A DNA stretch of 42,097 bases from a virus: IMG/VR virus record IMGVR_UViG_3300047483_000436, positions 1-42,097 of that record. One strand, given 5' to 3'. Position 1 is the stretch's first letter; the number at the start of each line of letters is the position of its first letter. Positions 1,977 through 38,616 of this stretch are shown one piece after another. The notes under the pieces are model-generated. The model saw only the letters and a program-made list of their open reading frames with translations, made no database searches and was not told where the DNA came from. The translations under genes and the position numbers were made by a program.

Positions 1977-3695
1977 TTATAGTATCTTTTTTCTTACAAT
2001 ATAATTCTGTAAAACTAAAGTATCCATTTCACAATTAAGAAAAGTTTGGATTGCAGTTTTTGGGTCCATCACCATAGTTTGGTCTTTCAAATTAAATGAT
2101 GTGTTTAATACAATTGGATATCCATTATCTATTTGTAATTGACAAAGAAGTTTATACATTCTCGTATGTTGTCTATTATTTAAAGTTTGGATTCTAGCAG
2201 AACCATCTATGTGTGTGATGGCCGGTAAATTATTACGATGTTCTGATTTTACTCTTACAACCTGATTCATAAATGGAACTAACAATTTATAATCAAAATA
2301 TTTTAATCTATCTTCTTCCTTTACAATCGGTGCAAATGGTCTAAATCCTTCTCTTTTTTTAATAACCTTATTTACCCTTGCTTTCATTTGAGGGTCTCTT
2401 GGGTTTGCAAGTATCGAACGATTACCTAATGCTCGAGCACCAAATTCCATTTTACCTTCGAACCAACCAATCACATTTCCATCAGTAATTTCTTTAGAAA
2501 CGATTGGAATTAATTCTGAATAATTTTTATACTCATACCAAACATCGGCATCGAATTCATCTAATGTAGTTTTTATTTCATCATTTGAATATGAAGGACC
2601 TAAATATGGGGTTGTATTATCAACTCTTACTGAATTTGAATTGTTATTGTAATAATGATATAATGCACATCCTATTGCAGAACCACCATCGGATGGTGCA
2701 GGTGGAATCCATAAATTTTTAAATGGAGTCATTTCGGTAATTTTACCATTGGCAGTTCCATTATACGCACACCCCCCACTCAAACATAAATAATTAGCAG
2801 GTCTAATTGCAGCCATTCTATTTAGTAATTTGAAAAAATATTCTTCATATACTTTTTGTAGTGTTGCAGCTAAATCCATATGATGATTTTGTAATTCTTC
2901 ATCTGGTAATCTATTTGGGAATCCAAATAATTCACCCAATTTTTCATTAAACATCATATCGGTTGACCATTCATAATCAAAGAAATCCATATTCAATTCA
3001 AATCCACCATCATCCGTTGATGAAATAATATCTTCAAATTTATCTAAATATGTTTTTGGATTACCATATGGTGCTAAACCCATTACTTTATACTCGCCTT
3101 CATTTGGTTTGAAACCTAAGAAAGCAGTAAAAGCTGAATATAACATACCCAACGAATGTGGGTATTCGATTGTTTGTAATTTAGTTATTTTATTAGAATC
3201 ACCATACGCAAGAACTGCAGTTTCCCATTCACCTACACCATCTACCGAAACAATTGCAGTGCGTTCGTAGGGTGATGTGTAATATGAATATGCTAAGTGA
3301 GATAAGTGGTGTTCTACATATGATATTTCAATTTCGTTTCCAAAGATTGATTTTATAGTAGTTTCTAATTCATCATACGCTTTTTTGTTTTTACTTATGA
3401 TTGATGCACTATTTAATAATTTAAAGAATCCACCTTTTTTTACGGATTTTTCAATTCGATTTATTTTAAGTTTAGGATTTTCATAAAATGAAACAACATT
3501 AATATCTGATGGAGTTAAGTGGTTTGATTCCAATAACCATTCAATTGATTTAAATGGAAATGATGCATCATGTTTCACACCGGTAAAACTTTCTTCTAAC
3601 GATGCCCCTATAACTTTACCATCTTTAATTAATGCTGCTGCGGAGTCGTGAAATCCACATGAAATTCCTAAAATGTAATTACTAATCTTCATCAT
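1977..3695 (-). CDS. Carbamoyltransferase, NodU/TobZ/CmcH family
   Basis: 572 aa, the full family length. The N-terminal kinase-like fold has GISCGFHDSAAALI at 10-23 and the metal-binding EHHLSHLAYS at 128-137, then VSVDGVGEWETA. The C-terminal YrdC-like half carries GKMEFGARALGNRSILANPR and GFRPFAPIV. Family members transfer carbamoyl from carbamoyl phosphate, via carbamoyl-AMP, to hydroxyls on sugars or antibiotics. The phage substrate may be a sugar or a modified nucleotide; the sequence does not say. The start ATGATG overlaps the end of the sigma-factor gene by 14 nt, which suggests translational coupling. Either Met is possible. Confidence 0.9.
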   Translation of the reverse strand: MMKISNYILGISCGFHDSAAALIKDGKVIGASLEESFTGVKHDASFPFKSIEWLLESNHLTPSDINVVSFYENPKLKINRIEKSVKKGGFFKLLNSASIISKNKKAYDELETTIKSIFGNEIEISYVEHHLSHLAYSYYTSPYERTAIVSVDGVGEWETAVLAYGDSNKITKLQTIEYPHSLGMLYSAFTAFLGFKPNEGEYKVMGLAPYGNPKTYLDKFEDIISSTDDGGFELNMDFFDYEWSTDMMFNEKLGELFGFPNRLPDEELQNHHMDLAATLQKVYEEYFFKLLNRMAAIRPANYLCLSGGCAYNGTANGKITEMTPFKNLWIPPAPSDGGSAIGCALYHYYNNNSNSVRVDNTTPYLGPSYSNDEIKTTLDEFDADVWYEYKNYSELIPIVSKEITDGNVIGWFEGKMEFGARALGNRSILANPRDPQMKARVNKVIKKREGFRPFAPIVKEEDRLKYFDYKLLVPFMNQVVRVKSEHRNNLPAITHIDGSARIQTLNNRQHTRMYKLLCQLQIDNGYPIVLNTSFNLKDQTMVMDPKTAIQTFLNCEMDTLVLQNYIVRKKIL

Positions 3696-16754: not shown

Positions 16755-17402
16755 TTATATTATACTTTTGAATTTAGGTTCACCCTCATTCAATCTAATT
16801 TTACATAAATCAGAATATACATAATCATTATAAAATGAATCGTTTAATTCTATATCTAAATACGCAAACATATCAATGATTTTACTTTTATCTTTTTTTA
16901 TAAAAATATCTTCAAAATAATACAACGGATATCCTTTAGTGGAAAACTGATGCATCATATTAGATTCGGTTAGCAATACGTTTTTACTATTTTGTATTTC
17001 ATCTGATGTGGTTATTGATAAATCGTAAAATTGTTTTTTCTGCCAACTATGAATATCATCTTGTTTCATATGATATGTCAAACTTTCACTTTGGGAATCT
17101 TTATCTATCCTATCCAATAAAATTATTTTTTCAAAATAATTAAAAAACCAATCCCAATATACATCTTCATTATCTAATAAACTTTTTGGTTTTTGAGCTT
17201 TACTAACAAAAGTCTTAATGAAAATATTTTTTTTGTTTTCAAAAAAATCTAAATCATAGGTTGGTTTACTTATTTTATCTCTCCAATAATTATTGAATGG
17301 CTCGGAAATACAAATGTGATTTTTTTTACTTAAATGGGCTTCGATTAAATGATATAAACTTGTAGAACCACTTCGTGCACTTGTTAGTATTGCAATTCTC
17401 AT
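16755..17402 (-). CDS. Sulfotransferase-like protein
   Basis: 215 aa. The N terminus MRIAILTSARSGSTSLYHLI matches the sulfotransferase 5'-phosphosulfate-binding loop (TxxRSGST). KIILLDRIDKDSQS near 90-105 stands where the family has its 3'-phosphate-binding Arg/Ser. Such enzymes move sulfate from PAPS to a hydroxyl or amine on sugars, proteins or lipids. It is shorter than most, so activity is likely but not certain. Last gene of the cassette; its ATG overlaps the preceding oxygenase gene (ATGA). It ends FKSII, the shared cassette tail. Confidence 0.7.
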   Translation of the reverse strand: MRIAILTSARSGSTSLYHLIEAHLSKKNHICISEPFNNYWRDKISKPTYDLDFFENKKNIFIKTFVSKAQKPKSLLDNEDVYWDWFFNYFEKIILLDRIDKDSQSESLTYHMKQDDIHSWQKKQFYDLSITTSDEIQNSKNVLLTESNMMHQFSTKGYPLYYFEDIFIKKDKSKIIDMFAYLDIELNDSFYNDYVYSDLCKIRLNEGEPKFKSII

Positions 17403-17965
17403 AATAAAGTTTTATTAATTTTTAATTTAGGATAATTGAAATCAGTTTCAGTCATCCATACGTTCAACGCATATCGTTTACCATTTGTTACTGGTAAAAC
17501 TCCATGATATGTCTGCATTCCATTAAATGAAATTGCATCTCCCAATTTTAAATCAAACGTTTCTATATCATCTAAATTTTCAAAATGAATTGCAGGAGAT
17601 TTACTATTAGATAGTGCAAATTGACCACCATCAAATCCTTCAGATAATACGATGACGGTAGTTAATTCACTTGTTTTATCTTTATGTAGATTAAGATATC
17701 TACCATCGTAGTAAGAGGTTAAACTAATATTAAAATTTTTTAATTTAAAATCTGTGTAGTTAAACCATAGTGTAAATTCGTTATTTGAAAATTTATTATT
17801 TAATAAATCAATTATTTCTAATTTAAAATTATCATCATAGATTCTTCTGCAATCCCAAGAGTTAGATAAATTATATGAAAATGGTTCACCATACTTCATA
17901 CAAAAATCAATTATAGTATCGGCTTTTGTTTTATCACAAAAATTGGTGTTTATATTGTAATTCAT
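17399..17965 (-). CDS. 2-oxoglutarate/Fe(II)-dependent oxygenase
   Basis: 188 aa. Facial triad H94-K-D96 (NLHKDKTSE), H154 (QTYHGVLPV) and Arg197-equivalent R164 (GKRYALNVW), with the usual GFDGGQFAL turn. Prolyl-hydroxylase-like type. Part of the cassette, coupled to the sulfotransferase by an ATGA overlap. Target unknown; a hydroxylated side chain made here could be the acceptor of a later sulfation, which is inference. Ends NKTLL, the cassette tail. Confidence 0.83.
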   Translation of the reverse strand: MNYNINTNFCDKTKADTIIDFCMKYGEPFSYNLSNSWDCRRIYDDNFKLEIIDLLNNKFSNNEFTLWFNYTDFKLKNFNISLTSYYDGRYLNLHKDKTSELTTVIVLSEGFDGGQFALSNSKSPAIHFENLDDIETFDLKLGDAISFNGMQTYHGVLPVTNGKRYALNVWMTETDFNYPKLKINKTLL

Positions 17966-17978
17966 ATCAATTTAGATA

Positions 17979-18674
17979 TTAAAATAGTTTATTTACTATT
18001 TTAGATTTAACCAATTCATATTTTTCTTCACTAAACATTTCTGGCTTAAAATTTACTTCGGTTTCTGATATGTAATTATGACCTGATATTTTATATGGAG
18101 TATTCATATAGAAATTGAATATCTCATCCCAATAGGTAATCGATGGTATTGTATTATTTATACCTTTTATTTGTCTTATTAGTCCAGATGGTTTGTTATA
18201 TACAATAACGATATGGGAACTATTTGAATCTTTAGTATTTTCACGTAACTCTATTAAGGTATTATCATAATTACATCTACCACAATTTCTCATACGTGCA
18301 ATCATTTCAATTGAATGATAGGTGTTCAATTCAACCCAATAATATCCAATATTATCAATTCTACTATCTAATAAAATCTTATTAGTTTCAATATAATTAT
18401 GGGGTGAATAACTATTACAATATTCTGTAATGTATTCACCCCATAATCGTTGGATTGTTTGTATAGTGGTTTTATTTAAAATACTCCAATCGGAGTTTAA
18501 TACCATTTCTACATAATTTGCTACATCATAAACAATACATTTTAATGTAGAATCACTATGTTTTCTAATAATATTACCATAATCTATTTCTATTTTTGAT
18601 AATAATATAGAACCAATGGTATCACCCAGAATACTATCAACTATTTTTAATTGATGTAATCTAGATGAAGCCAT
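17979..18674 (-). CDS. Unknown cassette protein with RNCGRC motif
   Basis: 231 aa, no signal or membrane segment. The only marked motif is MIARMRNCGRCNYDNTLIEL (124-143), followed by HIVIVYN and LIRQIKGINNTIP, a pattern that looks like an enzyme active-site block but fits no family I can name. It overlaps the 46-aa gene by one nucleotide (TAATG). The C terminus, NKLF, is a loose variant of the cassette tail. It could be a partner or processing factor for the neighbouring Hint protein; this rests on position only. Confidence 0.6.
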   Translation of the reverse strand: MASSRLHQLKIVDSILGDTIGSILLSKIEIDYGNIIRKHSDSTLKCIVYDVANYVEMVLNSDWSILNKTTIQTIQRLWGEYITEYCNSYSPHNYIETNKILLDSRIDNIGYYWVELNTYHSIEMIARMRNCGRCNYDNTLIELRENTKDSNSSHIVIVYNKPSGLIRQIKGINNTIPSITYWDEIFNFYMNTPYKISGHNYISETEVNFKPEMFSEEKYELVKSKIVNKLF

Positions 18675-18843: not shown

Positions 18844-20331
18844 TTATGCTTTTTCAAATCCACCACCACCACAGCCACAATATGATGAGTTACAGAAGTA
18901 ACCACAATAGTTCCAAGGACACCAGCAGGTGTTGTGCATCACACTAAATAATCCATCACCAACATCTACTAAAAATAAATCCGATGGTTCGAAATCCAAA
19001 CTATAAATAGTCGTTTGAGCATGTTCCATTTCTAATGATGTAATTGCTATTGTAGATAATTGGTTTGTAGATGAATCAGTTACAACCAATTTATCACCCA
19101 CAACTAAATTATTTACTTTCTCAAATCTAGTCTTATCTGAATCGTTTTCTTCTATAAAGTATGTACAAGATGGTGCATCTGTCCATGTTTTACCATCTTC
19201 TAATGTAATTCTTACATAAATAGTATCGATAGATGATGAATATACATTTGATAAACTGGATGATTCTGCAGTTAGGGTTTCATTTGCTTGTGGTAATGTA
19301 GTTTCCCAACCATAAGTTTCCAAAAGAGTTTGGTCGAATGCAGCTGCATTGTTACCATGTATATCTTGGAAATTTATAGATTTTATATAATCACCTAATT
19401 TTAAATTATCCACATCCACCAATGAACCAGTATAATCTAAAATAACCGAATCACTATCGGTGTGGTATTCATTAGTATATTCTCTTGTAATTGGCTTAGA
19501 AATATATTTTATTCTACTTTTTTGATTTAATCTTTTAGTATCGGCTACAAATTCATCAGTTGTAAAACTCATTGGAATTAGCGTACTTTGCTTGTATCCA
19601 CCTAAGTTAATCACATCTAATTCAGAACCATATATAATATCAATACTACGAATAATAGAATATCTACCATCTACAATATTTTCATCAGAGTAAACAAATT
19701 CTTGAACTAAATAATCAGAACCTAATTCATTTTTTAATTCAGTTAATTCTGAAATATCATCTAATTTGTATAAAGCAGGATATAAATTCAAATCATACGA
19801 TGGTGCGTTTGCCTTAACTAATACGTTTGGTGCAGATGGAATCGATGTATCTAAATTAGTAAACTCATCCATTTGCAATGATACACCACTAAAATATGTA
19901 GCAGGAATGTGAGCAGAACCACTCATTAAATTGAAGAATTCAAATTTATTAGCACAATAGGTTTCATCTACCAATGCAGTAGTATCATACGATTGTCTTA
20001 ATATAAATTTATTAGGTGCATCTTCGATATAAGGAACTGTCACCGAATTTACTGGAACTGGATATTCTGTAAATCCTATATTATTTTCAGCACATTTTTC
20101 TTTTAAAATTTCTTTAAATTTAAATGGCTCTACAAGTGGAGTATAGGCATCTACCTCTGTCCATATAAAATGAAATTCATTTATATTGTTAGATGTTAAA
20201 ACATCAAATAATGCGGTATAGTCTAATAAATCGGCACCTTGATTATAAATGGTTGTATTTGTATTTATTTCTAAAAACTTAACATTTCCATTCTTTTCCA
20301 ATAAATCGCTACCTATAATAGTTGCTTTCAT
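18844..20331 (-). CDS. Hint-domain protein with cysteine-rich C-terminal tail
   Basis: 495 aa. Residues 1-280 have LEINTNTTIYN (20-30), FILRQSYDTTALVDE (109-123), VLVKANAPSY (170-179) and YLVQEF (207-212), reminiscent of an ATP-grasp enzyme but with the ExN motif at the wrong end, so that call is weak. Residues 290-467 read as a Hint (intein/hedgehog) domain: DSVILDYTGSLVDVDNLKLGD (block A; His290 where the nucleophilic Cys should be), NLVVGDKLVV, and the end DLFLVDV...FSVMHN with His466-Asn467. After it come Thr468 and a 28-residue tail with Cys469, 471, 476, 480, 485 and 487, two Trp and a GGGG run. The loss of Cys1 with His-Asn-Thr kept suggests C-terminal cleavage without splicing. An AAGGA lies 5 nt before the ATG. 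Confidence 0.65.
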   Translation of the reverse strand: MKATIIGSDLLEKNGNVKFLEINTNTTIYNQGADLLDYTALFDVLTSNNINEFHFIWTEVDAYTPLVEPFKFKEILKEKCAENNIGFTEYPVPVNSVTVPYIEDAPNKFILRQSYDTTALVDETYCANKFEFFNLMSGSAHIPATYFSGVSLQMDEFTNLDTSIPSAPNVLVKANAPSYDLNLYPALYKLDDISELTELKNELGSDYLVQEFVYSDENIVDGRYSIIRSIDIIYGSELDVINLGGYKQSTLIPMSFTTDEFVADTKRLNQKSRIKYISKPITREYTNEYHTDSDSVILDYTGSLVDVDNLKLGDYIKSINFQDIHGNNAAAFDQTLLETYGWETTLPQANETLTAESSSLSNVYSSSIDTIYVRITLEDGKTWTDAPSCTYFIEENDSDKTRFEKVNNLVVGDKLVVTDSSTNQLSTIAITSLEMEHAQTTIYSLDFEPSDLFLVDVGDGLFSVMHNTCWCPWNYCGYFCNSSYCGCGGGGFEKA

Positions 20332-20377: not shown

Positions 20378-20665
20378 TTAAATTATAGTATTTTTATTTT
20401 TAGTTTTAATTATATCTAAATACTTAGAATCCACATTTTCCCATTTTTTTTGAGTGCATGGGTTAAACATAGTTGAAAATACTTTTTTATTCAACGGACA
20501 CCCACAATCTGAACAATATGCAGACCACTTTATTCCCTTCAAAACTTCTTTTCTAAAATCACACCCCAGACATACATCCAATCTGTCCTTTGCTAATAAT
20601 TCTTGAGTATCGGTTGGATTTGCTGATATTTTCCATGCCTCAAATATTTCTTTGTAATCAATCAT
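20378..20665 (-). CDS. Small zinc-ribbon-like protein
   Basis: 95 aa. Cysteines pair as CLGCDFRK (32-39), CSDCGCPL (51-58) and a later NPCTQKKW, the pattern of a treble-clef or ribbon zinc protein often found near phage oxygenase genes. The 86-aa protein at 39250-39510 uses the same plan (CDNC, GCGC, CPLGKW). Role unknown. It ends KNTII, the cassette tail, and starts 4 nt after the upstream sulfotransferase-like gene. Confidence 0.7.
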   Translation of the reverse strand: MIDYKEIFEAWKISANPTDTQELLAKDRLDVCLGCDFRKEVLKGIKWSAYCSDCGCPLNKKVFSTMFNPCTQKKWENVDSKYLDIIKTKNKNTII

Positions 20666-20669
20666 AATG

Positions 20670-21428
20670 TTATATTAAGGTGTTGGTAGATTTTGGTAAA
20701 TCATAATAATCATAAATATCGTTATATTTACTTATGAACTTATCATCTAAGATGATATTACATTCAATATGTTTACTAGAATTTGCTGATTCTAATTTGA
20801 ATGGTTTATCTACTTTTTCAGAAACCCAATTTTCTAACTCATTGATTTTAGCAAAATCAAACCAAATAATATTTGAATCATTATTTGTCCAATATGAAAT
20901 TGGTGTCAATAATATATCAATCATATTAATCGCATATCCAAATATAGTTTGTTCCCAATTGATAATATCTACTTTCTTATCGATTAATTTTAAATCAATT
21001 AAATATTGACCGATGACATCCCATCTTTGTTTTTTATTAATTATATCGGATGTAGTAAAAAAGAATAACTCATCTAATGTAAGTTTTGAAAATGCATCAT
21101 AAATTTTAGGATAACCACTTCTTTTTAAATCAAACAAAATGTGTTTATATAATGAATAAAATCTTTCATGTCTATTTCTCTTAACTGCAATTACTGGATA
21201 TGTTGTTCCAAATTTAGATTGTAAATCAATAATGGATTCGTGAGCATGATATATGTGATTCATTAAATTAGATTTGTCAATTGATTTGAAATCAACCTCA
21301 TCATTTAATGGTATTAATGTATTAGTATATGTTTGGACGTTTAAATCAGATATAAGACAAGAATAGTGGAATGCAGTTGATGCACAACGTGGTAGGCTTA
21401 GATATATAAATTTATTATCTACTAACAT
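20670..21428 (-). CDS. Sulfotransferase-like protein, tandem copy 2
   Basis: 252 aa. PAPS-loop-like LSLPRCASTAF at 10-20, then KRNRHERFYSLYKHI, matching the RxxRxxxSxY 3'-phosphate site. A paralogue of the gene just upstream: the first 20 residues are identical and the ends agree (WFDF..I.ELE.WVS, KPFKLE, YDYYDLPKST), while the middle has diverged. It overlaps that copy by one nucleotide. Likely cytoplasmic sulfation of an unknown acceptor. Ends TNTLI. Confidence 0.72.
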   Translation of the reverse strand: MLVDNKFIYLSLPRCASTAFHYSCLISDLNVQTYTNTLIPLNDEVDFKSIDKSNLMNHIYHAHESIIDLQSKFGTTYPVIAVKRNRHERFYSLYKHILFDLKRSGYPKIYDAFSKLTLDELFFFTTSDIINKKQRWDVIGQYLIDLKLIDKKVDIINWEQTIFGYAINMIDILLTPISYWTNNDSNIIWFDFAKINELENWVSEKVDKPFKLESANSSKHIECNIILDDKFISKYNDIYDYYDLPKSTNTLI

Positions 21429-22153
21429 TATATTAAAGTTTTTGTTGATTTTGGTAAATCATAATAATCATAAATCTTGTCATATCGTTGTATAAAGTCA
21501 TCATTTACTCTCAACTTAGATTTATAATTAACACTAGATCCAAAGTTTTCTAATTTAAATGGTTTATTTAATTTAATACTTACCCATTCTTCTAATTCAG
21601 ATAAATTATTAAAATCAAACCATTTTATATCTGAATCATTATTGTGATATACATACAATGGTGAAAACATTGGTAAGAATAGCGATTCTATATGTTTATC
21701 ATATTCAGTAAATCCTAACTTATTTAAAAAAGTATTAACCAATTTTATTCTACTATCAACATTTGTTAAATCAATACTATTATAAAATAATATATCAGAC
21801 ACATCTAATTCTAAAAGTTTACTATGTAATTCAATATGATTATTTCTGTATAGTTCACCGATTATATGATTAAAATATGAAATAAATCTATCGTGTCGAT
21901 TTCGTTTAACTGATATGATTTCGTACTCATTTCCAAACTTAGTTTTTAAAGATTTGATTGTTTCATGAAAATGATTTATATTATAAACTAACTCCATGTT
22001 ACTCATTGATTTGAAATCAATATTGTCATACATATTGTCATGAGTATTTTGAGCGTGTTCAATTTTTATATTATTTCTAATACATGAAATAAAAAAAGCA
22101 GTGGATGCACAACGTGGTAGACTCAGATATATAAATTTATTATCTACTAACAT
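21428..22153 (-). CDS. Sulfotransferase-like protein, tandem copy 1
   Basis: 241 aa. Same motifs as its neighbour: LSLPRCASTAF (10-20) and KRNRHDRFISYFNHI, the phosphosulfate- and 3'-phosphate-binding sites. Tandem duplication with diverged middle parts suggests two acceptors for one chemistry. Joined by single-nucleotide TAATG overlaps to the oxygenase gene before and the second copy after. Ends TKTLI, the cassette tail. Confidence 0.72.
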   Translation of the reverse strand: MLVDNKFIYLSLPRCASTAFFISCIRNNIKIEHAQNTHDNMYDNIDFKSMSNMELVYNINHFHETIKSLKTKFGNEYEIISVKRNRHDRFISYFNHIIGELYRNNHIELHSKLLELDVSDILFYNSIDLTNVDSRIKLVNTFLNKLGFTEYDKHIESLFLPMFSPLYVYHNNDSDIKWFDFNNLSELEEWVSIKLNKPFKLENFGSSVNYKSKLRVNDDFIQRYDKIYDYYDLPKSTKTLI

Positions 22154-22806
22154 TAGATTAGTGATTTTTGTTTTTTAATAAAACTAAATCCTACATTTCC
22201 TGCCATCACAATTCTATCTATTGTGGAATTCAGAGCAGCTTGAGGAGCATGTGGCATATCAGCTTCCATAATAATTAAATCATCTTCTTCAGGTCTAATC
22301 CAATATTCTTTTTCATTTTTACCTTTAAAATATAAAACACCATCATCATCATTCATTACATCTGGCATCTGAATATAATAAACATAGGTATAATGTGGAA
22401 CGAATGAATTAAATTTTTTATTTAACTCGGTATGCACATGGTATTTACTTACACCATCAATCTCATTGTGTTTGAGTTCTATCTGCACGGGGTTTTTACA
22501 ACGAACTACATTAACCCACGCATCGGTGTTTATTTTATTATATTCTATATTTTTTTCACTATACAATTCTTTACACTCACGTATTCCAGCGTAAACCAAT
22601 TCGTCTAATTTTGTTTTTATTTTAAAATCACCTATAAAATCTAAATCACCATCCCACTCTTTTTTATAAGCAAATGCATCATCTTTTGTTTCCGTTTGAG
22701 ATTCTATAACATGGTATGCTTCTTTTAAATGTATTTGTTTATCTACATTTTTATTTAACTTAGTTTTCCAAATATAAGTTTCATCATCAAAATATATTTT
22801 TTCCAT
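22153..22806 (-). CDS. 2-oxoglutarate/Fe(II)-dependent oxygenase, divergent type
   Basis: 217 aa. Possible facial triad H123/H125-T-E127 in KYHVHTELNK, H186 in MPHAPQA and R198 in STIDRIVMAG. This is the longer phage oxygenase branch in which the acidic ligand follows HxHxE rather than HxD, so metal ligands are less sure than in the other copies. It lies between the halogenase (1 nt gap) and a sulfotransferase gene. Ends QKSLI, the cassette tail. Confidence 0.7.
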   Translation of the reverse strand: MEKIYFDDETYIWKTKLNKNVDKQIHLKEAYHVIESQTETKDDAFAYKKEWDGDLDFIGDFKIKTKLDELVYAGIRECKELYSEKNIEYNKINTDAWVNVVRCKNPVQIELKHNEIDGVSKYHVHTELNKKFNSFVPHYTYVYYIQMPDVMNDDDGVLYFKGKNEKEYWIRPEEDDLIIMEADMPHAPQAALNSTIDRIVMAGNVGFSFIKKQKSLI

Positions 22807-22807
22807 A

Positions 22808-24049
22808 TTATATCAATTCTATTTTATTTACTTTCTTATTTTTTTTAAATATTGTTTGATAATTGTTTACAAAGAAAGTTAATTCATTTGTGTTTACATT
22901 TTCTAACTCAAACGCATTAAGTAATTCTAAATCATTCTTAACTATTATTGAATTATTTTTATCTAATATTTTTTCTAATTTAGGTGGTATTGGCATTGAG
23001 GTGCAATCTTTCCAAAAAGGAGTATCATCTCGTTCACATAAATAATGATATCTAATGAAATTTAAATTTTGTTCATTTATTTGATAACACCATTTATTAT
23101 AATTATCTCTATGATTATCATCAAAATTTATATCAATCAATCGTTTTAACTGCATGATAGTTGACATTAATGATGTTGCTTCCAATGGTTCGATGAATCC
23201 ATATGATAATCCGATTGATATTGAATTACCTATCCAACTTTGTTTATGTGTTCCTGGGTTAAAATCAAATGTTTTCTGTATAGTAATTTCATGTCCTAAA
23301 TATTTTTCAACTTCTAATTTAGCATCTTCAATTGTTTTGTATTTGGTATTAAAAACATACCCACTACCCCATCTATGTTGTAACGGAATTCGAAACATCC
23401 AACCAGAATCCATAGATACCATTTCAGTATAACTTTTATCATTAAACGTATATATCTTATTCTGTGGTAAAAAGAATGTTATAGCTTTATTCATCATAAG
23501 GTATTTATCATAACTAATCCATTTTTCGTTATGAACACCATCGATTATTAATCTTGCAAATCCACTACAATCAAAAACAAAATCTAAATCAATTGAGTTA
23601 CCATCTTTTAAATTTAATTTTGTTACATTACCATTTGTGTGTAAAATATCATCAACTTCACCATCCACCCAATTTACCCCTCGAGATATCGCGATTTCTT
23701 TGAAGTATTCTGCAACTAATCGAGCATCAAAATGATATGCGTATGATTTAGTATGTTCGTTTGGAGATTCCCCAAAAAATAAATGTTTGGATAACTCATT
23801 TTTACCAGTCCAATTATACAAATGCAATCCTGTCTTAACCGTAGATTTTGTTCTATCAAAAAACTCTAATTGATTTATATCGAGTAGATTCAACATTTTA
23901 CCAAAATTAGAAGTGCCACCTTCGCCTGCACCCAATACCCCAATTTTAGAACTTTCTAATAACGTAACATTAGCACCTTTCCAAAATTTGTTTACTACTA
24001 ATGCAGTTAACCATCCGGCAGTCCCACCTCCAATTATTACTACTTTCAT
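22808..24049 (-). CDS. Flavin-dependent tryptophan halogenase family protein
   Basis: 413 aa. GGGTAGW (7-13) is the family FAD-binding motif. Lys72 in STVKTGLHLYNW is the candidate for the lysine that carries hypohalous acid to the substrate. The halogenase signature WxxxIP reads GWMFRIP (216-222), with Phe where the second Trp is common. GFIEPLEATSLMSTI follows near 290. Such enzymes chlorinate or brominate free or carrier-bound indoles with FADH2, which needs a flavin reductase not seen here. At 413 aa it is shorter than PrnA (~540) and like the short forms of marine phages and Caulobacter. The neighbouring Hint protein has a Trp-containing tail, a speculative substrate. Ends KIELI. Confidence 0.88.
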   Translation of the reverse strand: MKVVIIGGGTAGWLTALVVNKFWKGANVTLLESSKIGVLGAGEGGTSNFGKMLNLLDINQLEFFDRTKSTVKTGLHLYNWTGKNELSKHLFFGESPNEHTKSYAYHFDARLVAEYFKEIAISRGVNWVDGEVDDILHTNGNVTKLNLKDGNSIDLDFVFDCSGFARLIIDGVHNEKWISYDKYLMMNKAITFFLPQNKIYTFNDKSYTEMVSMDSGWMFRIPLQHRWGSGYVFNTKYKTIEDAKLEVEKYLGHEITIQKTFDFNPGTHKQSWIGNSISIGLSYGFIEPLEATSLMSTIMQLKRLIDINFDDNHRDNYNKWCYQINEQNLNFIRYHYLCERDDTPFWKDCTSMPIPPKLEKILDKNNSIIVKNDLELLNAFELENVNTNELTFFVNNYQTIFKKNKKVNKIELI

Positions 24050-24064
24050 ATTGATAAAATTATT

Positions 24065-24634
24065 TTAAATTATTGATTTTTTAATAACACTTCCAGGCCA
24101 GACATTTAATGAATAGCGAACACCATTGGTTAATTCATCAACGGAGTGCACTATATTAGAATCAAAAATAAAAATACTACCTGTCTTTTTAGGAACGGAA
24201 TTTTCTACATTATCTATTATGTATTTTATATCACCACCATCATATGAATCGTTTAATTGAAATATAGTAGTAATCGATGCACCATATTCTATTTCATGTA
24301 AATCGGCATGCCAATCTAAAAAATCATGTTTAGAATATTGATTGAATGAATATTTGGGTATATGTGAATACGTTAATCCATTAAATATTTTTAATTCATT
24401 TAACGTGTCAATTACTTTAGTTGAAATTTGCTGTATTAATGGGAGTTTCAATGAATCGTTTACCAAATAACACCCCATCCGTTTATTAGTATTTTCATTT
24501 ATAGCAGATTCAGTATAAACACCATTTACATATTTAGATGATGTCATTTTTTGTAATCCACTATCTTTACCAATTTGTATGATACTATCACACTCTTCTT
24601 GTGTTAAAAAATTATCTATAAAAAGTGTAAACAT
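24065..24634 (-). CDS. 2-oxoglutarate/Fe(II)-dependent oxygenase, first cassette gene
   Basis: 189 aa. Clean triad H109-A-D111 (LDWHADLHE), H163 (NIVHSVDE) and R173 (GVRYSLNVW), with YDGGDIKY before it: a prolyl-4-hydroxylase-like fold. It opens the cassette, about 65 nt after a TATAAATA sequence and 70 nt after the Hsp20 terminator. Ends IKKSII, the cassette tail. Confidence 0.85.
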   Translation of the reverse strand: MFTLFIDNFLTQEECDSIIQIGKDSGLQKMTSSKYVNGVYTESAINENTNKRMGCYLVNDSLKLPLIQQISTKVIDTLNELKIFNGLTYSHIPKYSFNQYSKHDFLDWHADLHEIEYGASITTIFQLNDSYDGGDIKYIIDNVENSVPKKTGSIFIFDSNIVHSVDELTNGVRYSLNVWPGSVIKKSII

Positions 24635-31318: not shown

Positions 31319-31678
31319 TTAAATTAAAGTTTTTTTATTCTTAAATCTTGGAATACTTTGTTTAGAATTATTTAAATTTTGTTTAAATTCTTCAATTCTA
31401 GAACAAAATTCATAATTTTCTTTTTTAATAAACCAATCTAAACAATGATTTAAGACTACTTCATAATCTTTTTTTTCGATTACAACTACCGAAGATGCAT
31501 TGGTATGAACTACAAATGCAATTGATTCCTTTTTTTGAAGTATTGCGGTGTTAATATTTAACGCGATTTGATCAAATACTTCATTTCCATTTTTGTTAAG
31601 AAAATTCTGAACAAATGGATTATCAATTGGATTTAGATATTTCTCCCAACCTACGGTTGTAAATGTTCTACCTCTCAT
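31319..31678 (-). CDS. Unknown protein with cassette-like C-terminal tail
   Basis: 119 aa, no recognised family. It begins MRGRTF, a hexapeptide also inside PhoH (141-146) and shared at DNA level over about 18 nt, probably by chance. It ends KNKKTLI, the only clear match outside the 16.7-24.6 kb cassette to that cassette's tail. A Shine-Dalgarno CAGGAG lies 6 nt before the ATG, strong for this genome. Confidence 0.65.
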   Translation of the reverse strand: MRGRTFTTVGWEKYLNPIDNPFVQNFLNKNGNEVFDQIALNINTAILQKKESIAFVVHTNASSVVVIEKKDYEVVLNHCLDWFIKKENYEFCSRIEEFKQNLNNSKQSIPRFKNKKTLI

Positions 31679-36846: not shown

Positions 36847-38616
36847 TTATATTAATTTACGAATGGGTTCGGTATCGTTGGATTTGTTGAAAAATTTACT
36901 TATCATCTCTGGTCTTTTACAATCATCAATATTGTAAATATCACCAGTTTCAGTATATTTTTGATCTTTTAAATCATAATATAGTCCTCTATTATAAACA
37001 GAATGTGGTATTCCAATTTCTTTAAATACTGCTTCAATTCTATTAATTCTATCCAATCGTTCTTCGGCAGTATTATAATTTGTATTAAAATTAACCGTAT
37101 TATGGTATTGTAAATAATTTCCTTCCTCTACCCATTTGTTTCGTAGAGTAGCATGAATAAGAAACCCAGAGCATGTTAGTATTGATGACATACAATCTTG
37201 ATACTCTTTTACAAAATCAACTGTCTTTTGAAAATCTTCTTCAGTTTCGTTTAAATAACCAATAATTAATTGCATTGCAAAATTCATTGGTTGTTCGTTT
37301 TCTTTATTAATGATTCTAACATTTTCAAAAATTTCTCTAACACCATCCATTTTAGGATATTTCTTCATATGTCTTAAAACTGGTTCTGATGCAGATTCAA
37401 ATCCGGTAATCATCGCTACTAATCCAGCTTTTCTATATAATCGCATCGTTTCCAAATCACGCATTGGAGTTTGTAATCTGACGTTTCCACCAAAGGTAAT
37501 ACCATATCTATCTGGATATTGACCGGTTAACATATCTGCCCAACCTTTTTCAATAATAGTTTCGCAGAATTTTTTCAACCATCTTGGATCACCATTAATA
37601 ATACTATCGTGACAGAAGAAGTGGTAACGACCTTTATTAATCCAATGTTCCATTTCTTCGATGACAGTTTCCAATTTACGATAACGGAATACTGGAATAA
37701 ATTCAGGTACTGAGCAGAATGTGCATCTATAAGGACATCCCCTACTTAATACAAGTGGAACATTATATTGATATGTAGTCTTATAATAATAATTATCTTC
37801 CAATGAAGTATAATCTGGAAATGGTAAAATATCCATATCAACACTTTCACGTACCAGATTATGAACCAACTTACCTTGTGAATTTCTCCAGATAATCCCC
37901 TTTATTGTTTTTAAGGATTCTTCAGACATATCGGATTTCAATATTTCAACAAAAGTAATCTCACCATCACCTTTTACAAAAATATCAATAAACTTATATT
38001 TTTCAGTTGTATATTCTTTGTTAGGTAAAACTCCAAAATCTAAAACCTCAATGCCATTACCACCCATCAAAATTTTAATATGAGGATATCGTTCTTTAAC
38101 TTTTCTAGCAATTGCAAGAGATGCATCGATGTTCCCATCAATAATACTTAATCCAAAAAATGCAGGATTTGTTTTTTCGATATATTTGAAGACAAACCCT
38201 TCAATCATATCGTTCATTTCTTTGAACTCATATAAACGTTCATATTGACCCTGCATTGCATAGGTGTTGAACATATTGAAGAATTCTGATTGTTTATCGG
38301 GCGGGTGTAAATAAAAGTAATCGATTACTGGATCTATAATTGCAACATTCAAATCTGAATGGAATTTATCAATATACGATTTCAACGCAACAATACCGGC
38401 ATAATAACCAGATTCATTGATGTTTGGTGCTTGCATTAATAAACAATCTTGCTCACCCAATGAATCGTATTGAAAGGTGTGAGTTATTTCTTGAGTATTA
38501 TTTAAAACATGGGAATGCTTTAGGTAATTAGTTAAATCAATTTTAACATCAACCAATGGAACATCACTTTCTATTTGTTGAAGAATTCGTTTTTCTACTT
38601 TTGAAATATCATCCAT
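36847..38616 (-). CDS. Radical SAM protein with B12-binding-type N-terminal domain
   Basis: 589 aa. Residues 60-260 look like a Rossmann-type B12-binding domain (VAIIDPVID, FFGLSIIDG, HIKILMGGNGIEV, FVKGDGEITF) but without a clear DxHxxG, so cobalamin may be bound base-off or not at all. The radical SAM core holds SRGCPYRCTFC with Cys294, Cys298 and Cys301 for the 4Fe-4S cluster, then MITGFESASEPVLRHMKK and FAMQLIIGYLNETEEDF. Such B12-type enzymes methylate unreactive carbons or build thioethers and rings on lipids, antibiotics or peptides. It forms a unit of its own, closed by a terminator. It ends PIRKLI. Confidence 0.85.
   Translation of the reverse strand: MDDISKVEKRILQQIESDVPLVDVKIDLTNYLKHSHVLNNTQEITHTFQYDSLGEQDCLLMQAPNINESGYYAGIVALKSYIDKFHSDLNVAIIDPVIDYFYLHPPDKQSEFFNMFNTYAMQGQYERLYEFKEMNDMIEGFVFKYIEKTNPAFFGLSIIDGNIDASLAIARKVKERYPHIKILMGGNGIEVLDFGVLPNKEYTTEKYKFIDIFVKGDGEITFVEILKSDMSEESLKTIKGIIWRNSQGKLVHNLVRESVDMDILPFPDYTSLEDNYYYKTTYQYNVPLVLSRGCPYRCTFCSVPEFIPVFRYRKLETVIEEMEHWINKGRYHFFCHDSIINGDPRWLKKFCETIIEKGWADMLTGQYPDRYGITFGGNVRLQTPMRDLETMRLYRKAGLVAMITGFESASEPVLRHMKKYPKMDGVREIFENVRIINKENEQPMNFAMQLIIGYLNETEEDFQKTVDFVKEYQDCMSSILTCSGFLIHATLRNKWVEEGNYLQYHNTVNFNTNYNTAEERLDRINRIEAVFKEIGIPHSVYNRGLYYDLKDQKYTETGDIYNIDDCKRPEMISKFFNKSNDTEPIRKLI

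Follow-up and report, generated by a model that had tools for sequence, protein, structure and literature searches.

The locus studied here raises the question of whether a phage protein can act as a self-cleaving carrier that frees a short, Cys-rich peptide amid genes for modification enzymes. It lies in a stretch of viral DNA of 42,097 nucleotides (IMG/VR record IMGVR_UViG_3300047483_000436, positions 1 to 42,097), hereafter called the window. A sequence-only reading had proposed that a 495-aa protein encoded there closes with a Hint-like domain, whose terminal His466-Asn467 could detach a tail of 28 residues. To answer the question, we used structure prediction, searches for relatives and comparison of the neighbouring genes.

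The carrier protein and its predicted domains

The 495-aa open reading frame was confirmed with His290, His466-Asn467, Thr468 and the six-Cys tail, and its strand, which had not been given before, is minus. The features of the carrier are as follows.

18844-20331, minus strand: carrier protein P0001, 495 aa, with an ATP-grasp-like domain, a degenerate Hint domain and a Cys-rich tail
19477-20331, minus strand: predicted ATP-grasp / glutathione-synthetase-like domain, residues 1-285 (AF2 pLDDT 89.7; Foldseek)
18931-19464, minus strand: predicted Hint domain, residues 290-467, with His at block A, no block B His and terminal His466-Asn467
18931-18936, minus strand: His466-Asn467, predicted Asn-cyclisation / C-terminal cleavage site, invariant in relatives
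18847-18930, minus strand: predicted released peptide TCWCPWNYCGYFCNSSYCGCGGGGFEKA, residues 468-495, with six Cys

Searches of Pfam, PHROGs, NCBIfam and PDB sequences with P0001 returned nothing meaningful. For the Hint domain, Pfam gave no relevant match and NCBIfam none at all, the protein was not recognised by sequence models of Hint, BIL or intein domains, and the best result of the PDB profile search was the BIL structure 2lwy, at an E-value of only 0.23. The full-length AlphaFold model, built with 46 relatives as input, is of moderate confidence (pLDDT 68) and is weak at the junction, where pLDDT falls below 50 from residue 448 on. A Foldseek comparison of the modelled Hint domain with the PDB brought up inteins, intein-like domains and Hedgehog; the best E-value was 4.5e-6, and TMt reached 0.71. 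The Hint-like character suggested earlier is therefore borne out, and the predicted fold places the carrier in the Hint superfamily. For residues 1-285 the best Foldseek matches were 3k1t (E 6e-4), 1m0t (1.2e-3) and 3kak (1.9e-3), which are glutathione synthetases and one gamma-glutamylcysteine synthetase, with partial TM-scores of 0.38-0.44 against ATP-grasp structures. No match to this domain was found at the sequence level, and we count it as a predicted ATP-grasp-type fold. From the Foldseek matches of both halves, the order along the carrier is predicted to be ATP-grasp-like domain, Hint domain and peptide.

No homologue of the carrier was found in 50,697 cultured-phage records, and none in the cellular genome collection by a pattern scan, which could miss distant ones. 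Among uncultured viral contigs, 79 carrier loci were obtained in the first search and more were reached via profiles; the family set used below comprises 88 distinct complete proteins. Several of the loci are in contigs of 237-289 kb bearing a T4-type prohead protease, so the phages that have this gene include large T4-type phages.

The His-Asn junction is invariant and other catalytic positions are altered

The His-Asn pair is present in all 88 distinct complete members (75 fit the scripted junction pattern, and the remaining 13, inspected as printed, likewise have it), as well as in much more diverged relatives reached through other C-termini. The carrier thus has the C-terminal His-Asn of A-type BIL domains. 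At block A, His290 does stand where Cys or Ser would be expected, and this His is invariant across the window's own family, in which the block B His is absent. In the distant relatives L282-L293, Ser mostly aligns at block A and His at block B; His-Asn is invariant there too. The residue after the junction (+1), Thr468 in the window protein, drifts among S, P, T, G, A, Q, N and F across the family. Compared with inteins, the carrier has neither Cys, Ser or Thr at position 1 nor a class 2 or 3 substitute; at +1, many members have P, G, A, N, Q or F rather than Cys, Ser or Thr; and canonical F-block residues are missing. A class 3 intein was considered and ruled out, as the presumed F4 position seems to be Ser444, which is variable, and there is no Cys.

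Because P0001 has neither Cys nor Ser at block A and the residue at +1 varies within the family, no splicing is predicted, which supports the earlier expectation. Since His-Asn is invariant despite the altered blocks A and B, the retained function, if any, would be the C-terminal Asn step. These features fit a predicted C-terminal cleavage without splicing. Pro at +1 may slow Asn cyclisation, and the few family members that have it count against the cleavage reading, as do the missing F-block residues, the failure of sequence libraries to recognise the Hint domain and the weak model at the junction.

The Cys-rich tail

The tail of the window protein, TCWCPWNYCGYFCNSSYCGCGGGGFEKA, has two Trp, a GGGG run and six Cys spaced C-x-C-x4-C-x3-C-x4-C-x-C, as had been described. 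The earlier reading also drew attention to the mirror symmetry of this spacing. The symmetry is real in the window sequence, but 1-4-3-4-1 was seen only there and in its identical copies, while the family spacing is C-x-C-x4-C-x3-C-x4-C-x2-C (1-4-3-4-2), shared by 58 of the 75 tails that were counted. The tail of the window protein is symmetric because it is without one residue of the usual C-P-x-C; we dropped the symmetry as an accident of a single distinct sequence. Exact spacing is not uniform, but the Cys residues themselves are kept: across the 68 distinct tails compared as DNA, no change was seen in His, Asn, Gly477 or any of the six Cys, and their codons vary synonymously, the Cys using both TGT and TGC. 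In the same tails the +1 position holds S, G, T, A or P, and the positions past the last Cys are weakly constrained. Within the window's own lineage the peptide core is well conserved. As His-Asn occurs in all 88 relatives and the six Cys are invariant with mixed TGT and TGC, the carrier pattern is not due to chance. Even numbers of Cys are nearly universal in the inserts across relatives; an even count suits disulfides and would allow metal binding as well.

Three endings follow the peptide

Among the relatives, the peptide is followed by a stop, by a second, canonical Hint domain or by a Peptidase_S74-like self-cleaving chaperone. The double-Hint relatives, which were reached by a DNA pattern for HN-x-CWC, are about 37% identical and 627-641 residues long. 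In L219, L220, L221, L110 and L222 the second Hint lies after the junction and has Cys1, T-x-G-H or T-x-D-H, and His-Asn. It is recognised by PF14890 (E 1.7e-11), TIGR01443 and TIGR01445, and in the L148/L219 protein its best PDB match is the Tetrahymena BUBL1 BIL2 chains; profile comparison of the first with the second Hint gave a weak partial match only. The carriers L219-L221 and L110, in which a degenerate Hint, a Cys-rich peptide and a canonical Hint succeed one another, are a natural candidate for excision or cyclisation of the peptide. In L222 (3178-5091), His-Asn is kept and the 7-residue linker PNYSPFF takes the place of the peptide, which counts against reading the peptide as cargo; its 74-kb contig has two oxygenases and no halogenase, and no sulfotransferase was seen nearby.

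At least 13 other relatives have the S74-like chaperone. Their insert between His-Asn and the Ser-Asp of S74 is hypervariable, with 26-87 aa and 6, 8 or 12 Cys; despite this, the carrier aligns end to end and the cassette genes are still adjacent. The S74 match for L103 is just under the Pfam cut-off, and the pattern SDxxxKEN...VDYxKIDVEFK is clear. A conserved leader or carrier with a variable core, as in RiPPs, is therefore found in this lineage, and by analogy the hypervariable insert with its persistent carrier and cassette follows a carrier-cargo logic. L279, L281-L293, L285 and L312 are distant carriers with 26-87-residue Cys-rich inserts before an S74-like chaperone, and several distant carriers of this type lie, by eye, directly downstream of a NodU/NolO-like carbamoyltransferase.

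The cassette of putative modification enzymes around the carrier

The sequence-only reading had placed the gene in a cassette with a halogenase, oxygenases and sulfotransferases. The cassette is real: one Trp_halogenase, three 2OG-Fe(II) oxygenases and at least two sulfotransferase-like genes surround the carrier, as listed below.

16755-17402, minus strand: sulfotransferase-like by eye (SARSGSTSL N-terminus), no library match; ends KSII
17399-17965, minus strand: 2OG-Fe(II) oxygenase (PF13640, E 2.4e-9); ends KTLL
17979-18674, minus strand: 231-aa protein, function unassigned, directly downstream of the carrier
20378-20665, minus strand: 95-aa CxxC...CxxCxC...C protein, adjoining the carrier in most loci; ends NTII
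20670-21428, minus strand: sulfotransferase-like, homologue of the next gene, with a match in 88 of 98 loci; ends NTLI (20673-20684)
21428-22153, minus strand: sulfotransferase-like (weak PF00685, E 0.006); ends KTLI
22153-22806, minus strand: 2OG-Fe(II) oxygenase-like (PF13640, E 8e-4); ends KSLI
22808-24049, minus strand: flavin-dependent tryptophan halogenase (Trp_halogenase PF04820, E 1.9e-91); ends IELI
24065-24634, minus strand: 2OG-Fe(II) oxygenase (PF13640, E 1.4e-10); ends KSII

The halogenase has the expected motifs, GxGxxG as GGGTAG and WxWxIP as WMFRIP (with F as the second W), and keeps the catalytic Lys. The L219 homologue of the sulfotransferase-like gene at 20670-21428 matches PF03567 at E 9e-4, below the cut-off. 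The gene order OG1-HAL-OG2-ST2-C95-carrier-OG3-ST3 is conserved over about 75-80 loci, so that tailoring-type enzymes in a conserved cluster, another mark of RiPP systems, are found here. The double-Hint genomes L219-L221 have the same gene kinds in a changed order, and in loci without the halogenase a twitch-type radical SAM protein often comes directly after the carrier. In a 251-kb contig the halogenase is absent and the peptide Trp is kept; conservation of this Trp is therefore independent of the halogenase. Halogenase and Pro472 occur together in 43 cases, the halogenase alone in 11, Pro alone in 0 and neither in 8. These counts have the look of an association, but the tree has only 2 halogenase changes, too few independent events to support a link.

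The 95-aa Cys protein, which bears the tag described below, might serve the Cys-rich peptide as a thiol or metal chaperone. Elsewhere in the window there are a B12-binding-type radical SAM protein at 36847-38616 (PF04055, E 1.2e-15), far from the cassette, and a Nol-like carbamoyltransferase at 1977-3695 (phrog_1601, E 1.2e-109).

A C-terminal tetrapeptide shared by cassette proteins

The last four residues of cassette proteins, whose folds are unrelated, are K-[TS]-[LI]-I or similar. Ends of the form [ST][LIV][LIV] were found in 70 of 70 ST2, 16 of 16 ST1, 65 of 70 OG2 and 61 of 69 C95 proteins. The strict pattern [KNRQ][ST][LI][LI] terminates 364 of 1407 distinct neighbour proteins against 3.3 expected from its internal frequency; as the counted proteins are related, these are not 364 independent events, but they come from several families without relation to one another. 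The tag is never found on the carrier itself. The frequency of the tag changes with distance from the carrier, from 221 of 367 proteins within 2 kb to 7 of 441 beyond 6 kb, and of the 357 ORFs of the 288-kb contig, the 6 that bear the tag all lie at 38.6-54.4 kb. One tagged protein of the window is outside the core cassette, about 7 kb away.

31319-31678, minus strand: 119-aa protein of unknown family; ends KTLI

Its homologue in the 288-kb contig is conserved and likewise tagged. The mixed synonymous codons and the near absence of the tag past 6 kb rule out a DNA artefact (promoter or start overlap) and make the tag a protein-level trait. We read it most readily as a peptide for docking or sorting. 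A PDZ domain was sought as its receptor, and no PF17820 match was obtained in four large contigs; the tag was not seen in the halogenase/oxygenase clusters of the cultured phages HTVC008M, P-SSM2 and Syn10.

Proposed mechanism and alternative explanations

The reading that we prefer, with a probability of about 0.5, is that P0001 is a self-cleaving carrier, or leader, for a short Cys/Trp/Tyr-rich cargo peptide that is modified by tag-docked cassette enzymes and freed by Asn467. The ATP-grasp-like N-terminus and the Hint domain would form the conserved carrier. The halogenase, 2OG oxygenases and sulfotransferases (radical SAM protein or carbamoyltransferase in relatives) would probably dock through K-[TS]-[LI]-I on a common partner and act on the cargo while it is attached to the carrier. 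Asn467, helped by His466, would then cyclise and set free the peptide from residue 468 onward, with no splicing step, and the six Cys would most likely pair as three disulfides, or bind a metal cluster, after release. We infer the cleavage, the order of events, the action of the cassette on the peptide and the docking from the domain order, fold, His-Asn, synteny and tag that sequences and models provide. The peptide is taken as cargo because His-Asn is invariant beside a drifting +1 residue, unrelated Cys-rich segments can replace the tail, and two lineages have a second self-cleaving module on its far side. What suggests that it may be acted on by the cassette enzymes is synteny and residue types (Trp, Pro and Tyr). 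More tentatively, the whole may be a phage RiPP-like system, in which the ATP-grasp-Hint carrier shows a hypervariable disulfide-rich cargo to enzymes with a common docking tetrapeptide, and Asn cyclisation then frees a halogenated/hydroxylated/sulfated peptide, the other side being cut by a second Hint or S74 in relatives.

The same arrangement could be explained if the Hint domain were cleavage-dead or structural and the tail remained on a carrier or enzyme protein, where it would bind metal as a zinc-ribbon-like knuckle (CxC...CPxC), the cassette modifying virion proteins, host surface polymers or the like. In favour of this explanation are the similarity of CPxC(G) to the knuckles of zinc ribbons, the fact that the window family no longer has the canonical nucleophile at block A or the His at block B, and Pelagibacter phage HTVC008M, whose oxygenase and halogenase genes are found in the midst of structural genes. 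We regard it as rather unlikely, since His-Asn stayed invariant while other catalytic residues drifted, a structural metal site would not be expected to be replaceable by unrelated Cys-rich inserts of 75-87 residues, and other lineages added a second self-cleaving module after the tail. It is still less probable that the Cys-rich segment, matured by Hint and S74 cleavage, is displayed on the particle as a tip for receptor binding or decoration, with its hypervariability reflecting evolution with host receptors. This view is supported by the usual occurrence of S74 domains in phage fibres and other proteins of the virion, by matches of the S74 part here to PHROG virion-structural and tail-fibre families, and by the hypervariability of the inserts; on the other hand, the window cassette has no recognised structural genes beside it, the cassette of the 288-kb contig (46-54 kb) is distant from its sheath-like gene, located at about 164 kb, S74 is absent from most members found, and an ATP-grasp-like N-terminus is unusual in a fibre. 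Transfer of the N-terminal part to a nucleophile, in the manner of BIL domains or Hedgehog, or splicing of the peptide onto another protein would suit the second Hint of the double-Hint lineage, with its Cys1 and His-Asn and with Tetrahymena BUBL1 BIL2 as best PDB match. In the window family, however, position 1 of the first Hint is His and the +1 nucleophile is not fixed, and we consider such transfer or splicing very improbable.

Comparison with known systems

A-type BIL domains carry out C-terminal cleavage through His-Asn without ligation (PMC7765530). The carrier resembles them in its predicted Hint fold and conserved C-terminal His-Asn, and differs in its invariant block A His (Ser in some distant members), in having no sequence-level Hint or BIL match, and in a Hint dedicated to one peptide position within a conserved cassette. 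Ciliate BUBL loci have BIL domains between ubiquitin-like domains, and BUBL1 BIL2 is reported to form an isopeptide bond (PMC8616854). Like BUBL (PDB 6y75, 6tmm), the double-Hint relatives place a cargo between Hint domains; unlike it, the phage cargo is a Cys-rich peptide of 20-30 aa beside modification enzymes, and the window protein has the upstream Hint only. With RiPP clusters (graspetides and others), the locus shares a conserved leader or carrier, a hypervariable core and adjacent tailoring enzymes. Enzymes of the ATP-grasp, radical SAM and halogenase types are met repeatedly among RiPPs. In contrast to RiPP clusters, the leader is about 470 aa long with Hint and ATP-grasp-like domains of its own, no separate protease was seen, and the enzymes are tagged C-terminally.

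VirX1, a viral flavin halogenase of cyanophage Syn10, is listed without a natural product (PMC8407142). It is likewise a Trp_halogenase-family protein in a T4-like marine phage, whereas the cultured-phage halogenases are less than 40% identical to that of the window and the cultured-phage collection yielded no carrier homologue. With conotoxin-type, hypermodified peptides held by disulfides the tail shares a short length, six Cys and the presence of Trp, Pro and Tyr, a resemblance only and no homology. Trp, Pro and Tyr are the residues that a halogenase, a hydroxylase and a sulfotransferase would modify. A literature search found no description of this arrangement; the carrier combines features of BIL, BUBL and RiPP systems in a combination that we did not find described.

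If the proposed reading is true, ribosomal peptides that are rich in Cys and heavily modified are produced in the course of infection by some large T4-type phages, by means of a self-cleaving carrier and a common enzyme tag, which would be a new viral route to modified peptides. We know of no natural substrate of the viral tryptophan halogenases, and the peptide would be a concrete candidate for one group of them. The genetically simple scheme of leader cleavage and enzyme recruitment would be usable in peptide engineering, and if release and modification are demonstrated, the system would merit a class of its own.
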